A stretch of 18,454 bases of DNA from Candidatus Fermentibacterota bacterium (GTDB lineage: Bacteria; JAFGKV01). A program made the position numbers and the translations under genes. Location of the stretch: contig JAUXFG010000074.1 of assembly GCA_030620115.1 (NCBI GenBank), positions 1-18,454 of the forward strand. The letters run 5' to 3'. Shown in pieces: positions 7,826-18,454 of the stretch. Below the pieces are notes generated by a model. The model had not been told where the DNA came from. It did not search any database and saw only the letters and a list, made by a program, of their open reading frames with translations. Positions within the stretch are counted from its first letter, which is position 1. Each line of letters begins with the position of its first letter.

Positions 7826-10147
7826 ATGTCGAATAACCCAGCCCGCACCGCTATCTTGCCGTCATTCTTTGGCTTGATCGCCTTATGCTTTTTCGTTTTC
7901 GTTCCACCACTTCCCGCCACCATCGTTTCGTTTGGTATTGCTGATCCCGGCTGGCACGTGATCTCCACGTCACCCTCCGGTCTCGAGCTTCAATGGAATG
8001 CTCCCTCTTTGGAGGCCGAGGAGGTGGTGAAAGACGGAATCGTGTACTGGAAATTGGCTTTGGAAGGATCGGGCGTCGCTGCGGATCCAGGAATGCCGGA
8101 TCTCCCCGTCGCGCGGGTCATGATCCGCCTTCCTGCAGGCGGGAGCATTTCTGTGGTGGCGCACGCAGCTAATCACCAACTGATCCGTTTGAAGACATTG
8201 GGTGTGGACAGGATAGCCCCCCGCCCCAGACGTGTTGCAAAGATACGAGGCGCCACGCCCGACGATGGCTGGACAGTTGATGAAAAAGCATATACCGGCC
8301 CGTGCGGTGAGCTGGGCGCCGCAGTGGTCGAGAGGCTTGGCACCATGCGAGGAGTGAAATTGGGCCTCGTGGAAGTCAACCCTATCTCGTATGACCCGCT
8401 CGGCGCCGAATTGCGCCTGACGAAGTCCATACGGGTGAAGCTATCCTTTGACGAACCCCTTCGCGATATCGATCAGAGACTCTTGTCACAAGAGGCCTGG
8501 CAGCAGGTCTCTTGCCGCGTCCTGAACATGGACCAGTCGCGTGATCCCGTTGACCTCCCCGCGGGCTACCTCATCATCACTGCGGACGCATTGGAGAACG
8601 CGCTCTCTCCCTTGGCAGCATGGAAAGCCGAGAAGGGCTACCACGTCACCGTGACCAATACTTCACAGATCCCAGGAGGAGCTACGGCGGACAACATCAG
8701 GAGCTACATACAGGATGCGTATGATAACTGGACAGTGCCGCCCGTGTTTGTGCTGCTGGTGGGGGATTCCAACACCATCCCGGCATTCAACGGGACCGGA
8801 TATCAGAACCCCAAGACCGATCTGTACTACGGCTGCATGGATGGCGGCTCAGACTACCTCCCGGATCTGTACGTAGGGAGATTCTCCATGAGAACCGCAG
8901 ACGATGTCGCCGCCGAAGTTGAGAAGACGGTGGACTACGAGCAGGCGCAGTGGAGCCAGGGCAGCACGTGGGCGGGGAGGCAGTACTTCATCTCGTCGGA
9001 TGACTGGGGCAACCACGGACTCACTGAGGGCACACACACCTATTGCATGGCCAAGGCAAGGAGCCATGGTGTTACCTGCGACTCGCTCTGGGGGTACTAC
9101 GGCACCGGAACGCCCATTGCCGAGGCGGTGAACACCGGTCGGGCCATGGTTGCTTACTCCGGCCACGGGGTGGAGAACATGTGGCAGGGACCGATCTTCA
9201 GCAACTGGAATGTGAGCCAGCTCAGCAACCTTGACCGCTATCCCATCGTACTCAGCTTCGCCTGTCTCACCGGCGATTTCACCTGGAGCTCGGACCCTTG
9301 CTTCATGGAAAACTGGGTCAGACAGCACGACAAGGCTGCGGTGGTGGCGTGCGGATCATCCGCCAACTCGTTCTGGCCCGATGACGACTACTTGCAGCGT
9401 CGCGTATGGGACGCGCTGTTCGATGATGGGTTCAACTGGCCCGGCGGCTTCATCCTTGAAGGGAAGATGCTGTACGCCCTGTGGGAGCCCAACCAGTGGA
9501 TGGAGAGGGGTTATTTCGAGCAGTACAATATTCTTGGCGATCCTTCGCTGCTCTTGTTCACCTTGGAGCCTGTGGCTCTTGCCGCCACCATACCCGCCTC
9601 CATCCCTTCAGGCTCCCCACAGACAGTACAGATCACGGTCACCCGCGGAGGCCAGCCCATGGAGGGCGCCCTTGTAGGGCTCCACAAGGAGGGGGAAGTC
9701 CAGGAGGCGGGTTATGCTGATGCCAACGGTCAGGTTTCTCTCCAGGTGACCGCCACCACCACGGGATCCATCATAGTGACGAGCACGGCGTATAATTCAA
9801 TCGTATATGTCGACAGCATCACCGTAGGTAGTGGTGACGCCATCGCACCCACTGCGCCCTCTTGGGCAACCTTGTCACCGGCGGGGATTCTCACGTGGGG
9901 CGCCTCCTCTGACAATGTAGGCGTGGCGGGTTACCGCATCTACCGACAGACACACGCCTACTTCGACACAGAGGGCATATCCCATCTCCGGGAAACCGCG
10001 GAGACGACCTCTTCATTTCCGGGCAGCATGGGTAACCCAGCAGTGAACTACTATTTTCTCATCACCGCATTCGACGCTGCTGACAATGAGTCGGCTCCAT
10101 CACCACTTGTGGGCGAATACGACTTCGACCTTCCATCCGTGCCATAG
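7826..10147 (+). CDS. Secreted C25 (gingipain-like) cysteine peptidase with Ig-like and Fn3-like C-terminal domains
   Basis: A 773-aa exported protease of the caspase-like C25 family. N-terminal signal/hydrophobic segment (about residues 10-31), then a gingipain-type pro/N-terminal domain (about 40-235, with PGMPDLPVARVMIRLPAG). The C25 catalytic domain spans about 245-578: YLIITADALENALSPLAAWKAEKGYHV, FVLLVGDSNTIPA, DLYYGCMDG, LPDLYVGRFS, catalytic His in YSGH447G, catalytic Cys in LSFAC480LTG, ending YNILGDPSLLLF. An Ig-like/carboxypeptidase-regulatory-like domain (about 585-668) and an Fn3-like domain (about 674-768) follow. Start ATG 7826 has AGGAG 8 bases upstream. The next gene, a second C25 peptidase, starts 23 bases after the stop. 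No typical type IX secretion tail was recognised. The family is secure; the P1 specificity is unknown. Confidence 0.92.
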   Translation: MSNNPARTAILPSFFGLIALCFFVFVPPLPATIVSFGIADPGWHVISTSPSGLELQWNAPSLEAEEVVKDGIVYWKLALEGSGVAADPGMPDLPVARVMIRLPAGGSISVVAHAANHQLIRLKTLGVDRIAPRPRRVAKIRGATPDDGWTVDEKAYTGPCGELGAAVVERLGTMRGVKLGLVEVNPISYDPLGAELRLTKSIRVKLSFDEPLRDIDQRLLSQEAWQQVSCRVLNMDQSRDPVDLPAGYLIITADALENALSPLAAWKAEKGYHVTVTNTSQIPGGATADNIRSYIQDAYDNWTVPPVFVLLVGDSNTIPAFNGTGYQNPKTDLYYGCMDGGSDYLPDLYVGRFSMRTADDVAAEVEKTVDYEQAQWSQGSTWAGRQYFISSDDWGNHGLTEGTHTYCMAKARSHGVTCDSLWGYYGTGTPIAEAVNTGRAMVAYSGHGVENMWQGPIFSNWNVSQLSNLDRYPIVLSFACLTGDFTWSSDPCFMENWVRQHDKAAVVACGSSANSFWPDDDYLQRRVWDALFDDGFNWPGGFILEGKMLYALWEPNQWMERGYFEQYNILGDPSLLLFTLEPVALAATIPASIPSGSPQTVQITVTRGGQPMEGALVGLHKEGEVQEAGYADANGQVSLQVTATTTGSIIVTSTAYNSIVYVDSITVGSGDAIAPTAPSWATLSPAGILTWGASSDNVGVAGYRIYRQTHAYFDTEGISHLRETAETTSSFPGSMGNPAVNYYFLITAFDAADNESAPSPLVGEYDFDLPSVP

Positions 10148-10170
10148 GCCGGAAACAGAAAGGACACACC

Positions 10171-13100
10171 ATGACCAAGCTTGTGAGTCTCACGACCTTG
10201 ATGCTGCTGCTCGGAGGAGCACCTGGTTCCGCTGCAGATGTCATGAGGCTCGATTTCGCTTATGAAGAACCCTCGGTCTCGTGGGGGCCGGATGGGGACA
10301 TAGTAGAACTCGAAGGCTGCCAGATCATCGCACATGTAGGCGAGCCGCTCTTGCCCGTACATGGCGTTTCAGTCCTCCTTCCCGCGGGTCACGAGCTGGA
10401 GGGTGTCGAAATCGTTCCCGGGGATCCAGTGATTCTCCCAGGAACCTTCGACCTCCCCATTGCTCAGCGGCAATATCCATTCTCCTACGTGGGTCCGGTT
10501 GAGGTCGTGGAGCTGTCGGATCGGCTGAAGGGCAGCCCGGATCCCCATCCTGCGTACTTGCATGCCAATGAGACAACTCATTTCCTGGCCGGCCATGGGT
10601 TAGGGAGCTTCACCCTGCATCCCGTTCGCTACATCCCCGCCACGGGAACACTTCTCTATTATCCTCATATGAGTGTGCTGGTCACGACTACGACCACCGC
10701 TCGGGCACAGGAAGCCCTGGCCCGCCTCTATCGTGATTCCCACCTCGATCGGGAACGCATCCAACGTGCAACGCCCTTTATACAAGAGCTTGATACGTAT
10801 CCGGCTCAGAGAGGGGGAAGACGCAACGACTTCGATATTCTTCTCATCGCCGAATCCTCCCTTCTTCCGGAATTCGATCCCTACATCACCCACAAGACCC
10901 TCAGGGGCTGGAAAATCGTCACGAGGACCGTAGGTTCCACATCCTCCTATCCCGGTGCGGATACTCAGGAAAGAATCAGGAATTGCATCAAGGACTACTA
11001 CGAGAACTACGGCATTCAGTATGTCCTTCTGGGCGGAGATGACGAGACGATCCCTCATAGGGGGTTCTGGTTTGATCCGGGCTGGGGTCTCGAGGATTAC
11101 GATATCCCCGCAGATCTCTATTATGCGGCCCTCGACGGAACGTGGAATGATGATGGTGATGCCAAGTGGGGCGAGCCCAGCGAGGCGGATCTACTGGCGG
11201 AGGTTTTTGTTGCACGGGTTTGCGCCGATAATGCGGCCGAGGTTTCACGATTCATCAGCAAAACAGCTCTGTATGAAGACGAGCCGGTGGTAGCTGAATG
11301 TGACAAGGCGCTGATGGTGGGCGAAAAGCTCTGGGACGACCCGACGTGGGGCGGTGACTCCAAAGATGAGATCAAATCCGGGGCCTCCACACATGGGTAC
11401 ACCACGGTGGGGTTCCCCAATCCTGGAAACGTAGAAACACTGTATGACCGAGACATACCCGGGAGCTGGAATGCCATGTCGGACCTACTCCCACTCCTGA
11501 ACGGCGGTGTTCATTTCGTTAACCACCTCGGCCACTCCAATGTCGGCTACTACATGAGGTTCTACAACTCCAATATCACAGACGCCAACTTCACGAACAA
11601 CGGTGTGAATCATTCGCTGTACATCACCTACAGCCAAGGCTGTTATTGTGGTTCATTCGATAATCGCACCACCGGCGGCAGCTACACTTCTGATTGCATA
11701 AATGAAAGGATCACGACAGAGATCTCAAACGGCGCGGTGGCGGCGATAGCGAATTCCAGATACGGTTGGGGAGCTCATGAGAGCACCAACGGTTCGAGCC
11801 AGTACTTCGACCGACAGTTCTTCGATGCTGTGTTTGGCGAAGGGATAACCAATATCGCATGGGCCAATCAAGATTCAAGAGAGGACAATATCTGGGCAAT
11901 TAGCTACGCCCAGAACCGATGGTGCTACTACGAGCTGACTGTATTCGGGGATCCATTGCTTGACATGTGGACAGCCCAGCCGACCACAATGGCCGTTAAC
12001 TATCCATCAGCGTACATCATCGGCGGCCCCACATTCACCGTGACCGTCACAGGCGTCGCCGGAGCCAGGGTTGCACTGTCTCGAGACGGGCAGTTGCTCG
12101 GTCGTGGTTTTACCGATGTGTCCGGAGTTGCGGTGGTTGAGTTCGATGATCCTCCACAAACTCCCGGCGCCATGGACGTTGTGGTTACTGCCCATGACAG
12201 GCTTCCATTCCAGGGTACGGCGAATGTCGCAGACCCTGACGGTCCCTACGTTGTCTGTATCGACCACACCATCGATGACGACATGAACGGAAACAGCTGG
12301 GGAGATGCCGACGGCGAGGTCGAACTCGGTGAAACCATCGAACTCCCCTTGCTTCTCGAGAATGTCGGCACAGAGCAAGCTGCGGGCGTTATAGCAACCG
12401 TATCAACCAGCCAATCCTATGTCCAGTTCTCTCAGGATTCCCAGACCTACGGCGATATCGATATCGGCGCCCAGGTTTGGTCAGCCGGAAGCTATGTGTT
12501 TTCCGTGGTTCAAGACTGCCCTGACAGGACAGGCGTCACAATCGAGGTTAGCGCAACTGACGGATCCGAGACGTGGGTATCTTACGTTTCCATTATGGTG
12601 AATTCTCCGGTGCTCTACCTTGCTTCCTTTCAGATCAGCGAGGTTTCCGGCAACGGCAATGGGCAAGCGGACGCGGGTGAGACTATCGCAATTACGTCCA
12701 TGCTTGGGAACAGTGGGCACGGAACCGCATGGTCGGTGACCGGGGACATGTCATCCGGCGATGGCTATACCACAATCAATTCCGGCTCGGCAGGATATCC
12801 TGACATCAGCCCTGAGTCTACAGTCGGTTCGTCAGTACCGTTCCAGGTTGAGTTCTCCCCATCGACACCTCTGGGGCATTTGGTTGACTTCTCAGTTGAT
12901 GTAACAGCGGCCGGTGGGTATGCTGAGACCGTCGGTTTCACACTCTGCGTCGGCAAGAAATCTCTTCTCGTGGTGGATACCGACAATGAAACCACTGAAA
13001 CCAGGATTATCACCGCCCTGGACGATCTTGGTGAGGATTATGACCAATGGGCATGGTTTACCGCAGGCTCACCCGGTCTCGACGAACTCTTGCGCTACGA

Positions 13101-13902
13101 GACGGTCATCTGGGCCTCGGGCGACCAAAATGCGTCCACCGGTACGGCGCAGGATCGTCAGGACCTCGGCGCCTTCCTCGATCAAGGCGGCAGTTTGCTC
13201 TATTCGGCGGAAAACTACCTCACCCAGTACCCCAATGAATCGTTTACAACCGAGTACCTGCATATCGCGGATCATTCTGTAAATGTTACTGTCTTCAACA
13301 GCGTTGTGGGCGAGGCCGGGGATCCTATAGGGGATGGGCTGAATGTGTCCATATCCTATCCGTCCGATCTATCCGAGACACCTGATACAGTTGAACCAGA
13401 CGCTCAATCAGCGGTGGTATTCAGGTCTGGAAGCGCCAATCAATCCACCGTGATCAGGTATCCGGCTACAGGGGATGGCCCATATCGCATGATGTTCTTT
13501 GGAACGCCCCTGGAAGCGTTCAGTAGTTCCGGAGCCGGCGATAATAATATCTCCGGGGTTCTATCTCGCAGCCTGGCATGGATGAGGGGATCCGCAGATA
13601 TCCAAGCTCCTTCGGCGCCCGCATGGATAGCTATGACAACAGCCGGCGAGCTGACCTGGGATCCTGCCACCGACAATGTGGGCGTAACGGGCTACAAACT
13701 CTATCGGGCGACCGAACCCTACTTCTCCATTGATGGTTTGTCTCCATTGGCTAGCCCTTCAAGTGCAAACTGGAGTGCTCCAGGAAGCGTGGGCAATACG
13801 GAGATCAATTATTACTTCATCGTGACCGCCTGCGACGAGGCCGACAATGAATCTCTCCCATCGCCCATCGCGGGTGAACATGACTTCGCGATTGAGAACT
13901 GA
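10171..13902 (+). CDS. Large secreted C25 (gingipain-like) cysteine peptidase, multidomain
   Basis: A 1243-aa exported protease. Signal peptide about residues 1-22 (LMLLLGGAPGSAA). A gingipain N-terminal domain (about 25-205) has GEPLLPVHGVSVLLPAG. The C25 domain (about 218-600) has FDILLIAESSLLPEFDPYI, YVLLGGDDETIPH, DLYYAALDG, catalytic His in NHLGH455SN, catalytic Cys in YSQGC491YCGSFDN, and VFGDPLLDMW. Then an Ig-like domain (604-686), two CARDB-like repeats (about 713-808 and 830-925, each with a D/E-rich GET motif), an alpha/beta GATase/ThuA-like domain (about 930-1138, SLLVVDTDNET... FLDQGGSLLYSAENY) and a C-terminal Fn3-like domain (1146-1240). AAGGA at 10160-10164 precedes the ATG by 6 bases. 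It shares the last domain with its upstream neighbour, but the catalytic domains are only distantly alike. Confidence 0.92.
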   Translation: MTKLVSLTTLMLLLGGAPGSAADVMRLDFAYEEPSVSWGPDGDIVELEGCQIIAHVGEPLLPVHGVSVLLPAGHELEGVEIVPGDPVILPGTFDLPIAQRQYPFSYVGPVEVVELSDRLKGSPDPHPAYLHANETTHFLAGHGLGSFTLHPVRYIPATGTLLYYPHMSVLVTTTTTARAQEALARLYRDSHLDRERIQRATPFIQELDTYPAQRGGRRNDFDILLIAESSLLPEFDPYITHKTLRGWKIVTRTVGSTSSYPGADTQERIRNCIKDYYENYGIQYVLLGGDDETIPHRGFWFDPGWGLEDYDIPADLYYAALDGTWNDDGDAKWGEPSEADLLAEVFVARVCADNAAEVSRFISKTALYEDEPVVAECDKALMVGEKLWDDPTWGGDSKDEIKSGASTHGYTTVGFPNPGNVETLYDRDIPGSWNAMSDLLPLLNGGVHFVNHLGHSNVGYYMRFYNSNITDANFTNNGVNHSLYITYSQGCYCGSFDNRTTGGSYTSDCINERITTEISNGAVAAIANSRYGWGAHESTNGSSQYFDRQFFDAVFGEGITNIAWANQDSREDNIWAISYAQNRWCYYELTVFGDPLLDMWTAQPTTMAVNYPSAYIIGGPTFTVTVTGVAGARVALSRDGQLLGRGFTDVSGVAVVEFDDPPQTPGAMDVVVTAHDRLPFQGTANVADPDGPYVVCIDHTIDDDMNGNSWGDADGEVELGETIELPLLLENVGTEQAAGVIATVSTSQSYVQFSQDSQTYGDIDIGAQVWSAGSYVFSVVQDCPDRTGVTIEVSATDGSETWVSYVSIMVNSPVLYLASFQISEVSGNGNGQADAGETIAITSMLGNSGHGTAWSVTGDMSSGDGYTTINSGSAGYPDISPESTVGSSVPFQVEFSPSTPLGHLVDFSVDVTAAGGYAETVGFTLCVGKKSLLVVDTDNETTETRIITALDDLGEDYDQWAWFTAGSPGLDELLRYETVIWASGDQNASTGTAQDRQDLGAFLDQGGSLLYSAENYLTQYPNESFTTEYLHIADHSVNVTVFNSVVGEAGDPIGDGLNVSISYPSDLSETPDTVEPDAQSAVVFRSGSANQSTVIRYPATGDGPYRMMFFGTPLEAFSSSGAGDNNISGVLSRSLAWMRGSADIQAPSAPAWIAMTTAGELTWDPATDNVGVTGYKLYRATEPYFSIDGLSPLASPSSANWSAPGSVGNTEINYYFIVTACDEADNESLPSPIAGEHDFAIEN

Positions 13903-14439: not shown

Positions 14440-14469
14440 GCCATATACGCGATAGGTGATCGATGGCTT
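14438..14469 (+). terminator. Weak hairpin at the end of the peptidase operon
   Basis: AAGCCAT (14438-14444), overlapping the TAA stop of the metallophosphoesterase gene, pairs perfectly with ATGGCTT (14463-14469) across an 18-base loop. There is no T-run. It could mark the transcript end, but a chance pairing is quite possible. Confidence 0.25.
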
Positions 14470-14479
14470 GGGCTCGGTC

Positions 14480-14572
14480 TGTCATTCTGAGCGCACGCGA
14501 AGAATCTCAAGGTACGCGACCTTAGCCTGAGGAGGAAAGATCCTTCGTTTCCTAGGGTCACTCAGAATGACA
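14480..14572. repeat. Dispersed palindromic repeat (93 bp)
   Basis: Perfect 12-bp terminal inverted repeat, TGTCATTCTGAG (14480-14491) and CTCAGAATGACA (14561-14572). An inner pair, CGAAGAATCT and AGATCCTTCG, matches at 9 of 10 positions. It has the form of a common dispersed hairpin repeat of environmental bacterial genomes (TGTCATTCTGAGCG... type). It is non-coding and lies between the peptidase and pgs operons. Confidence 0.75.
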
Positions 14573-14633
14573 GTGTTGCGACATGGGTGTCTTGGTGTTA
14601 GGATCTGTCCTTCGTCCTCCGTCTTCTGTCTAC

Positions 14634-14681
14634 CCGACCGAAACGGTCGGCGTCAGTTCCACGTGAAGTTGTGGAACTGAC
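14634..14681 (+). promoter_or_regulatory. Two adjacent perfect hairpins in the pgsB leader
   Basis: Hairpin 1: CCGACCG-AAA-CGGTCGG (14634-14650), 7-bp stem. Hairpin 2: GTCAGTTCCAC (14652-14662), an 8-base loop, then GTGGAACTGAC (14671-14681), 11-bp perfect stem. They sit one base apart and end 26 bases before the pgsB ATG. No T-run follows, so they look more like a leader/attenuation or protein-binding structure than a simple terminator. Whether they are transcribed with pgsB is inferred. Confidence 0.5.
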
Positions 14682-14707
14682 ATAGACACGCAGCCTATCG
14701 AGGAGTT

Positions 14708-15883
14708 ATGCTTATTCTCGCTGCACTAGTGATCTGTATCGTGATCTACGGCATGATTGAACACCGACGGCATGTCAGGAACCTGGCATCCATGAAGTTT
14801 AGGATTCATGTAAACGGGACACGCGGAAAGTCCAGCGTTACCAGATTGATTGCCGCGGGCCTTCGGGCAGGCGGCATCCGCACGATTGCCAAGACCACGG
14901 GCTCTGCGGCACGCATGATTTGGGAAGACGGGAGCGAAACTCCGGTAGAGCGCTACGGCCCCCCCTCCATCAGAGAGCAGATCGGAGTGGTCAACAAGGC
15001 CGCCGAGCGAGGGGCAGAGGCCCTGGTGGTGGAATGCATGGCCCTGCAGCCTGACTATCAGTGGTTCACCGAACAGAAGCTGATCCGCTCTACCCACGGG
15101 GTTATCACCAATGTCAGGGAGGACCACCTCGATGTCATGGGACCAACGGTTCTAGATGTCGGTTACGCGCTCTCCAATACGATCCCCAAGGCGCAGTTGG
15201 CCTACACTACGGAAACCAGAATGATCGGTCCGTTGAAGACCGTGGCGAATAGCCGAGGTACACGCTTAGAGGTTGTGACAGCCACCGATCAAGACCGCGA
15301 GGACTCGACCCGATTTCAGTATCTCGAGCATCCCGATAATGTGGCCTTGGCGTTGGCGGTCTGCCGTGATTTGGGAGTGGGCCGATCTGTGGCTCTCACC
15401 GGGATGTGGGCCGCTGATCCGGATATCGGCGCCCTGAAGATCTGGGAGATACATTTTTTCGACAAGAGGCTCTTTTTTGTGAATGCCATGGCCGCCAATG
15501 ATCCTGAATCCACGCTCATGGCCTACGATCGAGCCAGGAGCACGGTGACCGGATATGAGAGAACGGTGATTCTCTATAACAATCGCGGGGATAGGCCTGC
15601 CCGCGCCAAACAGTTCGGCGAATTCCTGGCCAAGGATCTTGGCGCTGATCATAATGTCCTCATCGGCGACGGCACCAGGCCGGTGGAAGATGAGGCGATC
15701 AGAGCCGGCCTGCCTGCGCACAGGATCTCGAACATGGGAGGGGGCTCACCGTCCGAGGTATTCGAGAAGGTACTGGACCTTGTGGATGAAACTGCGCTAG
15801 TTGTGGCAATCGGAAATCTAGGGGGTCTCGGTGGCTCTGTGGCCGCATACTTCCAACACAGGGGGAAGCCGCTTGGTTCTTGA
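14708..15883 (+). CDS. pgsB: Poly-gamma-glutamate synthase PgsB/CapB (Mur-ligase-type amide ligase)
   Basis: ATP-dependent amide ligase that, with PgsC at the membrane, polymerises glutamate through gamma-linkages. The protein is 391 aa, the family length (about 393). It has an N-terminal membrane helix (residues 2-16, LILAALVICIVIYGM), then the Mur-type P-loop FRIHVNGTRGKSSVTRLI (31-48), IAKTTGSAAR, ALVVECMAL, the NVREDHLDVMG motif, and NNRGDRPARAKQF. AGGAG at 14701-14705 is unusually close (2 bases) to the ATG, but the helix start fits the family. It opens the four-gene operon and overlaps pgsC. Another polyamide product is possible, but the PgsC and PgsW neighbours favour poly-gamma-glutamate or a close relative. 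Confidence 0.93.
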   Translation: MLILAALVICIVIYGMIEHRRHVRNLASMKFRIHVNGTRGKSSVTRLIAAGLRAGGIRTIAKTTGSAARMIWEDGSETPVERYGPPSIREQIGVVNKAAERGAEALVVECMALQPDYQWFTEQKLIRSTHGVITNVREDHLDVMGPTVLDVGYALSNTIPKAQLAYTTETRMIGPLKTVANSRGTRLEVVTATDQDREDSTRFQYLEHPDNVALALAVCRDLGVGRSVALTGMWAADPDIGALKIWEIHFFDKRLFFVNAMAANDPESTLMAYDRARSTVTGYERTVILYNNRGDRPARAKQFGEFLAKDLGADHNVLIGDGTRPVEDEAIRAGLPAHRISNMGGGSPSEVFEKVLDLVDETALVVAIGNLGGLGGSVAAYFQHRGKPLGS

Positions 15884-16340
15884 ATCCGTAGGGATAGGCT
15901 TGGTTATCAGCCTATTATTCTCTGAGCTCTTTGGCCTGGTGGCGGGGGGCCTTGTGGTCCCCGGATACATGGCCTTGTATATCGACAGACCCTTGGCAGT
16001 GCTCTCGACTCTGGCAGCAAGCTTGGCCACATTGGGGTTGATACGGTTCTTGGCCTACTTCATGTTCATCTTCGGTCGAAGACGTATGGTATTGACGATC
16101 ATCTTCGGTTTTCTCCTCGGCTCGGCTCTCCGCACCGCAGGAGATCTGAGACTGGCGGGCTTCGCGCTTGATCTTGCCCCAGTGGGCTACATCATTCCGG
16201 GCCTCCTGGCGAACTGGATGGATAGGCAGGGTGTAATGCCTACCTTGGCGACCCTGGTCATTGCCTCGGTTCTTGTCCGTCTGATTCTCATCCTCATCTC
16301 CGGTGGAAGCTTCTTCGGCTTGGAGGGGAATCTCGGATGA
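15831..16340 (+). CDS. pgsC: Poly-gamma-glutamate biosynthesis protein PgsC/CapC (membrane subunit)
   Basis: Small polytopic membrane protein that partners PgsB in the synthase. Seen: hydrophobic segments separated by short loops and the family signature GLVAGGLVVPGYMALY near the N-terminus (compare Bacillus PgsC, AGLVVPGYLAL), then RRRMVLTIIFGFLLG and VGYIIPGLLANWMDRQG. The start is uncertain. GTG 15831 (AGGGGG 5 bases upstream, 169 aa) overlaps pgsB by 53 bases. TTG 15873 (GGGGGAAG 4 bases upstream, 155 aa) overlaps by 11 bases and gives a more family-like N-terminus. The stop overlaps the next ATG as ATGA, so translation is probably coupled. Confidence 0.92.
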   Translation: MALWPHTSNTGGSRLVLESVGIGLVISLLFSELFGLVAGGLVVPGYMALYIDRPLAVLSTLAASLATLGLIRFLAYFMFIFGRRRMVLTIIFGFLLGSALRTAGDLRLAGFALDLAPVGYIIPGLLANWMDRQGVMPTLATLVIASVLVRLILILISGGSFFGLEGNLG

Positions 16341-17464
16341 GCGGTTTTCGGACGGTCTCACCGCGTGTACTCATAGTCCTGGCGCTATTGTCCGTAGCGT
16401 GCTTCGTCATTGCGCAAAATGCTACGGTGATTGTCCGCGGCAATAACTACCGGGAGAAATTGCGTGCCTCCCGTCTTGCGCTCCTCTCACAGCAGGCAAT
16501 CAAAGATCATCGGTTCCCCAAGGGCCAGGAGATCGACCTGGTCAATGATCCGTACGCCACTGGAATGATTGGTCAGGAGTACACACTCATTACCACTGAT
16601 CGCGGCGTCATCCGTTCCAAGCTCACCGCCACGAACCCCAACTTCGGCGCGGTCATGGTGGAGTTCCTGACCAGAGCGGGGCTGGAAGAAGGAGATGTCA
16701 TCGCAGTATCACTGACCGGATCATTTCCCAGCCTCAATATCGCTCTGCTCGCCGCCGCGGACATCCTGGGGCTGAACCCCCTGGTCATCACCAGCGTGGG
16801 TTCTTCCACATGGGGCGCCAACGACCCTGAGTTCACTTGGCTGGACATGGAGGACCTGCTCTACCAGAAGGGGTTGATTCGAACCAGATCCATTGCCGCA
16901 TCCACAGGCGGCGGAGAGGACAGAGGGCGCGGCTTGAGCCGTCTCGGGAGACGCTATATCGAGCAGGCAGTCGAACGAAACGGCATCGAGCTCATCAGAG
17001 AGCGTACCCTCGAGGAGTCCATCGCCAAGAGGATGGAGAAGTACCACGAAGCTGCGGGCAAGCGACCTATCCGTGCCGTAGTAAATATCGGCGGAGGTGT
17101 GGCGAGTCTTGGCGCGAGCATCAACGGGAAACTCATTCCATCCGGGCTCTCTATGTCGCTGGCTCGGAGGAATTTCCCAGTCAGAGGAACCCTGCTCCTG
17201 TTGGCAGAGCGTGGTATCCCCGTCATTCATATACTGCATGTCCAGAAACTGGCCAAGAAATTCGGCCTTCCCGCCCCACCCGGCCCAGACCAAGAAATCG
17301 GCGTTGGCGCCATCTATTTCACGGAACGACTCAATTGTGCGGTGGCCGGTTTCCTGCTTTTTCTTCTCCTCCTGATACTCCTGGTGACCATACGAGTCGA
17401 CCTCGCGCATAGCCTTCTTCGCAAAACAAGTACAAAGCCCGAAATCCATGGAGGTGCGCTGTGA
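16337..17464 (+). CDS. pgsW: Poly-gamma-glutamate system protein (PgsW-type)
   Basis: A 375-aa protein matching, from memory, the family named 'poly-gamma-glutamate system protein', found next to pgsB/pgsC in several lineages. It has an N-terminal membrane segment (10-27), a large extracytoplasmic region, and a C-terminal membrane segment (334-352) with a short basic tail. Recognisable stretches: YATGMIGQEYTLITTDRGVIRSKLTATNPNFGA (73-105), VAVSLTGSFPSLNIALLAA, GSSTWGANDPEFTWLDME and VNIGGGVASLGASINGKLIPSG (249-270). ATGA overlap with pgsC; GGAGG (16322-16326) upstream. It occupies the position where pgsA/capA is expected in Firmicutes operons. Biochemical role unknown; transport or assembly of the polymer is an inference. 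Confidence 0.85.
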   Translation: MSGFRTVSPRVLIVLALLSVACFVIAQNATVIVRGNNYREKLRASRLALLSQQAIKDHRFPKGQEIDLVNDPYATGMIGQEYTLITTDRGVIRSKLTATNPNFGAVMVEFLTRAGLEEGDVIAVSLTGSFPSLNIALLAAADILGLNPLVITSVGSSTWGANDPEFTWLDMEDLLYQKGLIRTRSIAASTGGGEDRGRGLSRLGRRYIEQAVERNGIELIRERTLEESIAKRMEKYHEAAGKRPIRAVVNIGGGVASLGASINGKLIPSGLSMSLARRNFPVRGTLLLLAERGIPVIHILHVQKLAKKFGLPAPPGPDQEIGVGAIYFTERLNCAVAGFLLFLLLLILLVTIRVDLAHSLLRKTSTKPEIHGGAL

Positions 17465-18330
17465 TCCGCCTTCTCCTCGGCCTTAGCCTGCTCGCGGTCT
17501 GCTTCCTACCCTCGGCGCATGCAAAGGAGTGGGAGTTCATCCGATCCGGCCAAGACGACACCACGAGTTTGATAGTCCTCATCAAGGGTTCGGCCAGGAC
17601 CTACTACAAGGCATCCAATCTTGCCTTGACACTGACCGGCCCGGGATACTTGAAAATAATCTCCCGGTGGGTTGGTCCGCGCCCTACGGCTCGGGACACT
17701 TCGTATACTCTTCGGGTCACGGTTGGCAAGAAGCAATACCGCAAGCACTATAGAGTCACAAGATCCGGGGTGGCGGGGATCAGACAGAGGAAGCTTTGGG
17801 TAGGGAAGAGCAGAACTTTTACCATTCCTCTCCCCTCCACGACCACGGTGGTGAGAATCGATTCACCTTTAGGGAATGTGTATGTTCGACCATTTTTTTC
17901 ACAGCAGCCCACGAGACTGGGAAAACTAAGATCCATGAGCCCCACCACTTTTTGCGAGGTGGTGCGTTTGGAGAGAAAGGAGCGTGAGAGGAAGTACTAT
18001 CGTGCCACAACCGAGAAGCCTGTGGAACTTCAGATCATCGGGCCAACGACCCTGGTGGTCTACTCTCGTCTTGAGTTCACCTACGACATGAAGGGTCTTC
18101 AGAACTACGGCATACAGATATGGGAGGAGGAGAGCCTCCTCCATTCCTTCGCGTGGAGTACATCCCGATCCGATGTGACGAGATACATGGACCGCGATGA
18201 TCTTGTGCCTTCACCCGGTCAAAAGGCCTTGGTCAAGGTACCAAGGGGAGCACATCAGTGGACGTTCAAGCCCTCCAGCAGGATGGAGAGCGTGCTGTTT
18301 CGCTTCCTCATTCCGGAGCGTGATCTATAG
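17461..18330 (+). CDS. Secreted protein of unknown function, last gene of the pgs operon
   Basis: I do not recognise this 289-aa protein. It starts at GTG 17461 (GTGA overlap with the pgsW stop) with a strong ribosome site, GGAGGTG at 17450-17456. A classical signal peptide (MIRLLLGLSLLAVCFLPSAHA) predicts cleavage after A21 and export. The rest looks beta-rich. Two halves, about 47-146 and 178-286, share a pattern: YYKA...LTLTGPGYLKIISR against YYRA...LQIIGPTTLVVYSR, then YTLRVTVG against YGIQIWEE, then GKSRTFTIPLPSTTTVVRI against GQKALVKVPRGAHQWTF, each ending YVRPFF or LFRFLI. This suggests an internal duplication of one beta-sandwich domain. Tight coupling to pgsBCW suggests a role in polymer binding, export or anchoring; this is inference. 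Confidence 0.8.
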   Translation: MIRLLLGLSLLAVCFLPSAHAKEWEFIRSGQDDTTSLIVLIKGSARTYYKASNLALTLTGPGYLKIISRWVGPRPTARDTSYTLRVTVGKKQYRKHYRVTRSGVAGIRQRKLWVGKSRTFTIPLPSTTTVVRIDSPLGNVYVRPFFSQQPTRLGKLRSMSPTTFCEVVRLERKERERKYYRATTEKPVELQIIGPTTLVVYSRLEFTYDMKGLQNYGIQIWEEESLLHSFAWSTSRSDVTRYMDRDDLVPSPGQKALVKVPRGAHQWTFKPSSRMESVLFRFLIPERDL

Positions 18331-18388: not shown

Positions 18389-18454
18389 CGGATGATAGAA
18401 TCTTGGAGTGCGGTCGCATGAGGCCGCTATCAGATTCCGCGACGTGTCGCGGGA

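Follow-up and report, generated by a model that had tools for sequence, protein, structure and literature searches.

A candidate periplasmic and outer-membrane protein pair accompanying poly-gamma-glutamate synthesis genes in diderm bacteria

We describe a poly-gamma-glutamate system of diderm bacteria with what we call its own envelope pair: X, a secreted protein with a duplicated domain, and OMP, a predicted outer-membrane beta-barrel, whose genes follow pgsB-pgsC-pgsW. Judging from sequences and gene neighbourhoods, the scales tip slightly towards a diderm secretion pathway for poly-gamma-glutamate in which X acts in the periplasm and OMP in the outer membrane.

Genes for the synthesis of poly-gamma-glutamate are found in many diderm phyla, and the standard definition of this capsule type, the CapABCDE model of CapsuleFinder, holds no outer-membrane component; diderms need at least one further protein for outer-membrane crossing (PMC5542703). 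In the open-access literature, to which our search was confined (subscription journals lay outside its scope), we found neither PgsW/TIGR04332 as a studied protein nor a description of X, OMP or an outer-membrane step for poly-gamma-glutamate. Excerpts of papers on Cloacimonadota describe only Cap/Pgs genes (PMC13082233, PMC8542988). If our reading is right, how diderms secrete or display the polymer could be tested directly on two defined genes; in many phyla, two families that now lack a name could receive an annotation, and the X-OMP module would serve to distinguish diderm poly-gamma-glutamate operons. The route would then be analogous to cellulose and alginate secretion while unrelated to them in sequence.

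The operon, gene X and the gene beyond the contig end

The window, that is, the whole stretch of DNA analysed, is the entire contig C132 of 18454 bases; it ends 124 bases past X, at position 18454, so the operon is truncated within it. The relevant features are:

14708..15883, + strand: pgsB, poly-gamma-glutamate synthase of Mur-ligase type (TIGR04012, 432.7 bits, cut-off 222.7; Pfam Mur_ligase_M)
15831..16340, + strand: pgsC, membrane subunit (TIGR04011, 127.4 bits, cut-off 96.45; PF14102 Caps_synth_CapC, 7.6e-31)
16337..17464, + strand: pgsW, poly-gamma-glutamate system protein (TIGR04332, 320.6 bits, cut-off 100)
17450..17454, + strand: GGAGG ribosome-binding site of X, 6 nt 5' of the GTG (sequence)
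17461..18330, + strand: X, secreted protein with a duplicated domain (open reading frame and translation; homologues after pgsW in other X-bearing genomes)
17461..17523, + strand: X signal peptide, residues 1-21, cut between AHA and KE (read from the sequence; hydrophobic N-terminus conserved in the 18-sequence alignment)
17566..17904, + strand: X domain 1, residues 36-148, with Y48, G60-P61, R69, P125 and R143 (profile-profile match to domain 2; conservation; AlphaFold2)
17947..18324, + strand: X domain 2, residues 163-288, with Y179, G194-P195, R203 and G263-x-H265 (profile-profile match to domain 1; conservation)
18415..18454, no strand assigned: interspersed repeat of 40 bp that closes the contig, one of 6 genomic copies
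G000:C231, about 259-1362, outside the window: OMP, the next gene of the operon (profile search; synteny with L002)

PgsB, PgsC and the TIGR04332 protein are encoded by adjacent, overlapping genes (14708-17464), all over their curated NCBIfam cut-offs, and pgsBCW as such is already known and annotated. With hydrophobic stretches at both ends, PgsW looks like a protein of the inner membrane that has a periplasmic domain. The operon in the window holds no PgsA/CapA, and pgsE and capD are likewise absent from it. A preliminary description of this DNA had already remarked on the missing PgsA/CapA, correctly for the operon, though PF09587 proteins are encoded elsewhere in the genome and in many other X-bearing genomes; X is thus not a simple replacement of PgsA.

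The gene for X starts with GTG and encodes 289 aa. The same description had given it an overlap with pgsW, a strong ribosome-binding site and a signal peptide, and all three are found: the GTGA at 17461-17464 is both the start of X and the stop of pgsW, GGAGG lies 6 nt before the GTG, and the N-terminus, MIRLLLGLSLLAVCFLPSAHA followed by KEW, reads as a classical signal peptide with an A-x-A site after residue 21.

The closest relatives of this locus are L002, from a Candidatus Fermentibacteria MAG, and L003, from a Candidatus Eisenbacteria MAG, with X proteins 52-55% identical. In both, the gene after X encodes OMP, a secreted and barrel-like protein of about 370-390 aa, and a profile of this family (A4) finds OMP at the very start of contig C231 of the window's own genome (E 3.2e-77). 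C231 starts with the last 40 bases of C132, with one mismatch; after OMP it carries genes for a 335-aa beta-propeller-like and a 611-aa FG-GAP-like protein, the same next two as in L002. Because of the shared 40 bases and the matching gene order, the operon of the window almost certainly continues as pgsB-pgsC-pgsW-X-OMP, a join drawn from overlap and synteny. Two of the six genomic copies of the 40-bp repeat lie at contig ends.

On the other side of the operon, 7826-13902 encodes two large secreted proteins resembling C25 (gingipain-type) peptidases, the second syntenic with a protein of equal length (1243 aa) in L002 and L003. These two loci also carry a DJ-1/PfpI-like gene between a metallophosphoesterase gene and pgsB (L002:4577-5188; L003:4352-5182), which is missing from the window (14440-14707).

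X had been called unrecognised, and searches for a clear known family leave it so. Neither the window protein nor its 18 homologues (to E<=1) match Pfam or NCBIfam above noise, and a profile search of PDB sequences with X returned nothing above noise (E<=5). X was rejected as a PgsA/CapA protein: it is without a PGA_cap domain, PF09587 being matched neither by X of the window in Pfam nor by the 18 homologues (E<=1). The BcsB family is absent among the Pfam and NCBIfam matches of these homologues at the same limit. The MtxA Ig-like family (PF22433) was also discarded: it matches one of the 18 homologues over 22 residues (E 0.0011), at 19.2 bits below the cut-off of 26, and MtxA was not returned by the PDB profile search with X (E<=5). 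X and OMP are two families without a name, neither of them in Pfam and X also absent from NCBIfam.

Distribution of X and OMP across genomes

We surveyed 290 genomes, nearly all listed as outside the window's phylum, with thresholds of E < 1e-30 for X and E < 1e-40 for OMP. PgsW was found in 31 genomes, OMP in 23 and X in 22; every genome with X and every genome with OMP belongs to the 31. X and OMP occur together in 22 genomes, OMP without X only in G198. In 18 of the 22, X lies directly 3' of pgsW on the same strand, with a 4-base overlap in six, and the gene order pgsB-C-W-X-OMP is seen again in lineages that are listed under other phyla than the window's. The tie of X to pgsB/C/W, first proposed from the window, is therefore borne out by the neighbourhoods (22/22 in PgsW genomes). 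The further proposal, that X is a new extracytoplasmic component, holds in that X is secreted and linked to pgsBCW, but X is not alone: it is paired with OMP.

Four genomes (G005, G107, G153, G243) have X away from pgsW and yet retain it. G107 carries an adjacent X-OMP pair (L103) apart from pgsBCW, which suggests that X and OMP work together; a second, divergent barrel in this genome also bears an X domain. In G060 (E 2.6e-25), G212 (1.2e-15), G274 (6.8e-12) and G071 (6.9e-11) the X domain stands at the N-terminus of OMP itself, where it matches either half of X, and it was still found with an X profile rebuilt without three of the OMPs.

Fisher's test over the 290 genomes gives 3e-26 for X with PgsW and 4e-32 for X with OMP, values that ignore relatedness. 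On a quick PgsW tree the presence of X takes 2 changes, against a mean of 10.5 for shuffled labels; X-OMP would be, roughly, largely a module of one PgsW lineage. As the PgsW proteins of genomes with X fall into what is roughly a single lineage, the co-occurrence does not amount to many independent events, and the linkage could partly reflect shared ancestry. Co-occurrence that is kept after the genes have separated is a stronger argument than the Fisher values.

Omp85 is encoded in all 31 PgsW genomes, including the 22 with X, so all of them have an outer membrane. Since every sampled PgsW genome is thus diderm, the observation that X occurs only where an outer membrane exists is non-discriminating. 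X is missing from nine of the 31, one of which has OMP, so not every PgsBCW system requires the X-OMP pair. The X domain, for its part, is not exclusive to the pgsBCW system, since weak single-domain relatives occur in G016 and G169, genomes without PgsW or PgsB.

Several related loci were seen along the way. L105:7342-8466(+) and L106:7288-8454(-), in genomes without PgsW/PgsB, encode secreted proteins 374-388 aa long, each with a single X-like domain (E about 1e-8 to 1e-10), beside lipoprotein-like genes. A divergent cluster, L107 (G221:C10:38000-55000), encodes a PgsC fusion of 801 aa, a protein of 1695 aa with weak X-like domains and a 767-aa PgsB-like protein, and may represent a version of the pathway, as yet unnamed, that uses large proteins; a PgsB-like reading frame of about 790 aa is present in G190. 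A second, solo PgsW stands beside gamma-glutamyltranspeptidase-like genes at L067:9234-10265(-), L065:8918-9910(-), L052:10134-11120(-) and L068:9727-11607(-), and PgsW thus appears to have a second, uptake- or processing-like context. At the L052 locus a transporter, an M14-like gene and a small secreted protein follow (names read from the sequence); apparently the same transporter/M14-like module comes after pgsBCW in G156 (L051), which lacks X.

A secreted protein about 1000 aa long, which combines PKD repeats with a PGA_cap (PgsA-type) domain interrupted by an insert, is encoded in 13 of the 22 PgsW genomes with X and in none of the nine without (Fisher 0.002, uncorrected). Some copies end in a FlgD/Por sorting tail; loci include L113:2505-5522(-), L109:2913-6248(-) and G000:C191:3775-4593. 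This protein may be a PgsA counterpart or a surface processing enzyme of the system.

Architecture of X and OMP

The mature part of X had been thought to consist of two copies of one domain. We aligned the halves 36-148 and 163-288 with hhalign, each as an 18-sequence family alignment (A3), and obtained a probability of 99.8% over 115 columns with a score of 149, while the best of 30 column-shuffled controls reached 2.6% and a score of 17.6. By this comparison, the halves are one duplicated domain, far beyond chance, with boundaries slightly wider than the 47-146 and 178-286 first suggested. Each half carries the same pattern of a tyrosine (48/179), a G-P pair (60-61/194-195) and an arginine (69/203), and a P/G-x-H motif near its end (125-127 in the first half, 263-265 in the second).

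Conserved positions across the 18 sequences are mainly structural (Y, G, P, R), and no catalytic acid, His, Ser or Cys set common to both halves is conserved among them; on this ground X was rejected as an enzyme. Mature X has a mean charge of +12 over the same sequences, and the window protein reaches +23 with a pI of 10.4. Seventeen of the 18 are basic, and the lone acidic X comes from G060, where OMP itself bears an X domain. The charge per residue of X also exceeds that of most other open reading frames called in the same loci. Taken with the want of a conserved catalytic set, the basic charge would suit X to binding a polyanion.

AlphaFold2 models of X (three sequences only, mean pLDDT 48) leave the structure of half 2 unresolved, so it is the profile comparison that carries the homology of the halves. 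Half 1 is modelled as a seven-strand, jelly-roll-like sandwich, with ten-residue block means mostly of 57-86 over mature residues 21-130. The model resembles the jelly rolls of carbohydrate-binding modules and of BcsB, tied at Z 7-8.

OMP is predicted to be an outer-membrane beta-barrel forming a porin-like channel. Its low-confidence model (mean pLDDT 53) is a barrel of 14 long strands, whose structural matches (Foldseek, VIA) are porins and other outer-membrane barrels, CymA and OmpG first; the fold search singled out no particular exporter family. Among 15 OMPs, none matches the Alginate_exp, PgaA or Wza exporter families in Pfam (E<=1), and six give a weak match to the generic OMP_b-brl family (PF13505). 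The OMPs have invariant N, D, E and R positions and a mean charge of about -4, and so are not basic overall. In several, the last residue is aromatic, a frequent feature of outer-membrane barrels.

Proposed role, alternatives and known systems

In Bacillus, PgsBC build the chain from glutamate and move it through the inner membrane, and PgsB and PgsC of the window, assigned by homology, would do the same. Beyond that membrane, diderms leave the chain a periplasm and an outer membrane to cross, a gap that X, secreted, basic and with two tandem sandwiches of a polymer-binding kind, and a porin-like barrel would fit. X, exported by its signal peptide, would bind the polyanionic chain through its two tandem basic jelly-roll-like domains and pass it on; the barrel would dock X or the chain and give an exit pore, in some lineages with an X-type domain of its own. 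Whether X and the barrel form a dedicated route from the periplasm to the outside, the missing outer-membrane step of diderms for this polymer, is to our minds evenly poised.

Export and surface anchoring cannot be separated by computation: we put export at about an even chance and hold anchoring to be distinctly less probable. CapD covalently anchors poly-gamma-glutamate in some monoderms, and X and OMP could conceivably retain the polymer as a capsule, the barrel being an outer-membrane anchor, X the polymer binder, with export by another route. The linkage and charge evidence fits this as it fits export; the modelled domain 1 of X resembles polymer-binding (CBM-type) jelly rolls, and genomes with X often carry the surface-sorted PGA_cap protein of about 1000 aa with its PKD and sorting domains. 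Anchoring agrees less well with the barrel, which weak models predict to be a porin-like channel and no small anchor, or with the tight pgsW-X overlap, since the latter suggests stoichiometric expression with the synthase.

It is improbable that X regulates the synthase or helps to assemble it, in the place of the Bacillus PgsA/CapA or PgsE/CapE, with OMP as a mere neighbour. PgsA is indeed missing from the operon and X directly follows pgsW; moreover, PgsB and PgsC of Bacillus suffice to make polymer without PgsA (PMC6029982), so accessory subunits vary. Against this stand the fusion of the X domain to OMP in several lineages, the near-perfect co-occurrence of X and OMP even when unlinked, and the PF09587 proteins also present in many genomes with X. 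Least probable of all, X-OMP would serve another exported polymer or solute and pgsBCW of this clade would make no poly-gamma-glutamate, as the solo PgsW beside gamma-glutamyltranspeptidase-like genes and the X relatives of G016 and G169 might hint, whereas the scores of PgsB and PgsC exceed the NCBIfam equivalog cut-offs by a wide margin.

The secretion pathway that we favour can be set beside several known systems. With PgsBCA(E)/CapBCADE of Bacillus it shares orthologous PgsB and PgsC (by the equivalog cut-offs), adjacent in both; the operon of the window differs in having pgsW, X and an outer-membrane barrel in place of pgsA, pgsE and capD. Like PgsA/CapA (PF09587), X would be an extracytoplasmic accessory protein of the same pathway, but without the PGA_cap domain. 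Exporters of the AlgE/PgaA/Wza type place an outer-membrane pore beside a polymer synthase, as proposed here for OMP, which differs from them in having no sequence match to the exporter families in Pfam. The cellulose secretion proteins BcsB and BcsC differ in more respects: X is soluble, small and without a sequence match to BcsB, OMP is without a TPR scaffold, and the polymer is a polyamide. The modelled half 1 of X matches BcsB at Z 7.3, tied with many unrelated sandwiches and so at the level of a common fold only (half 2 being unresolved). BcsB-BcsC would nevertheless be the closest working analogy: a periplasmic protein with tandem jelly rolls and a barrel, beside a membrane synthase.
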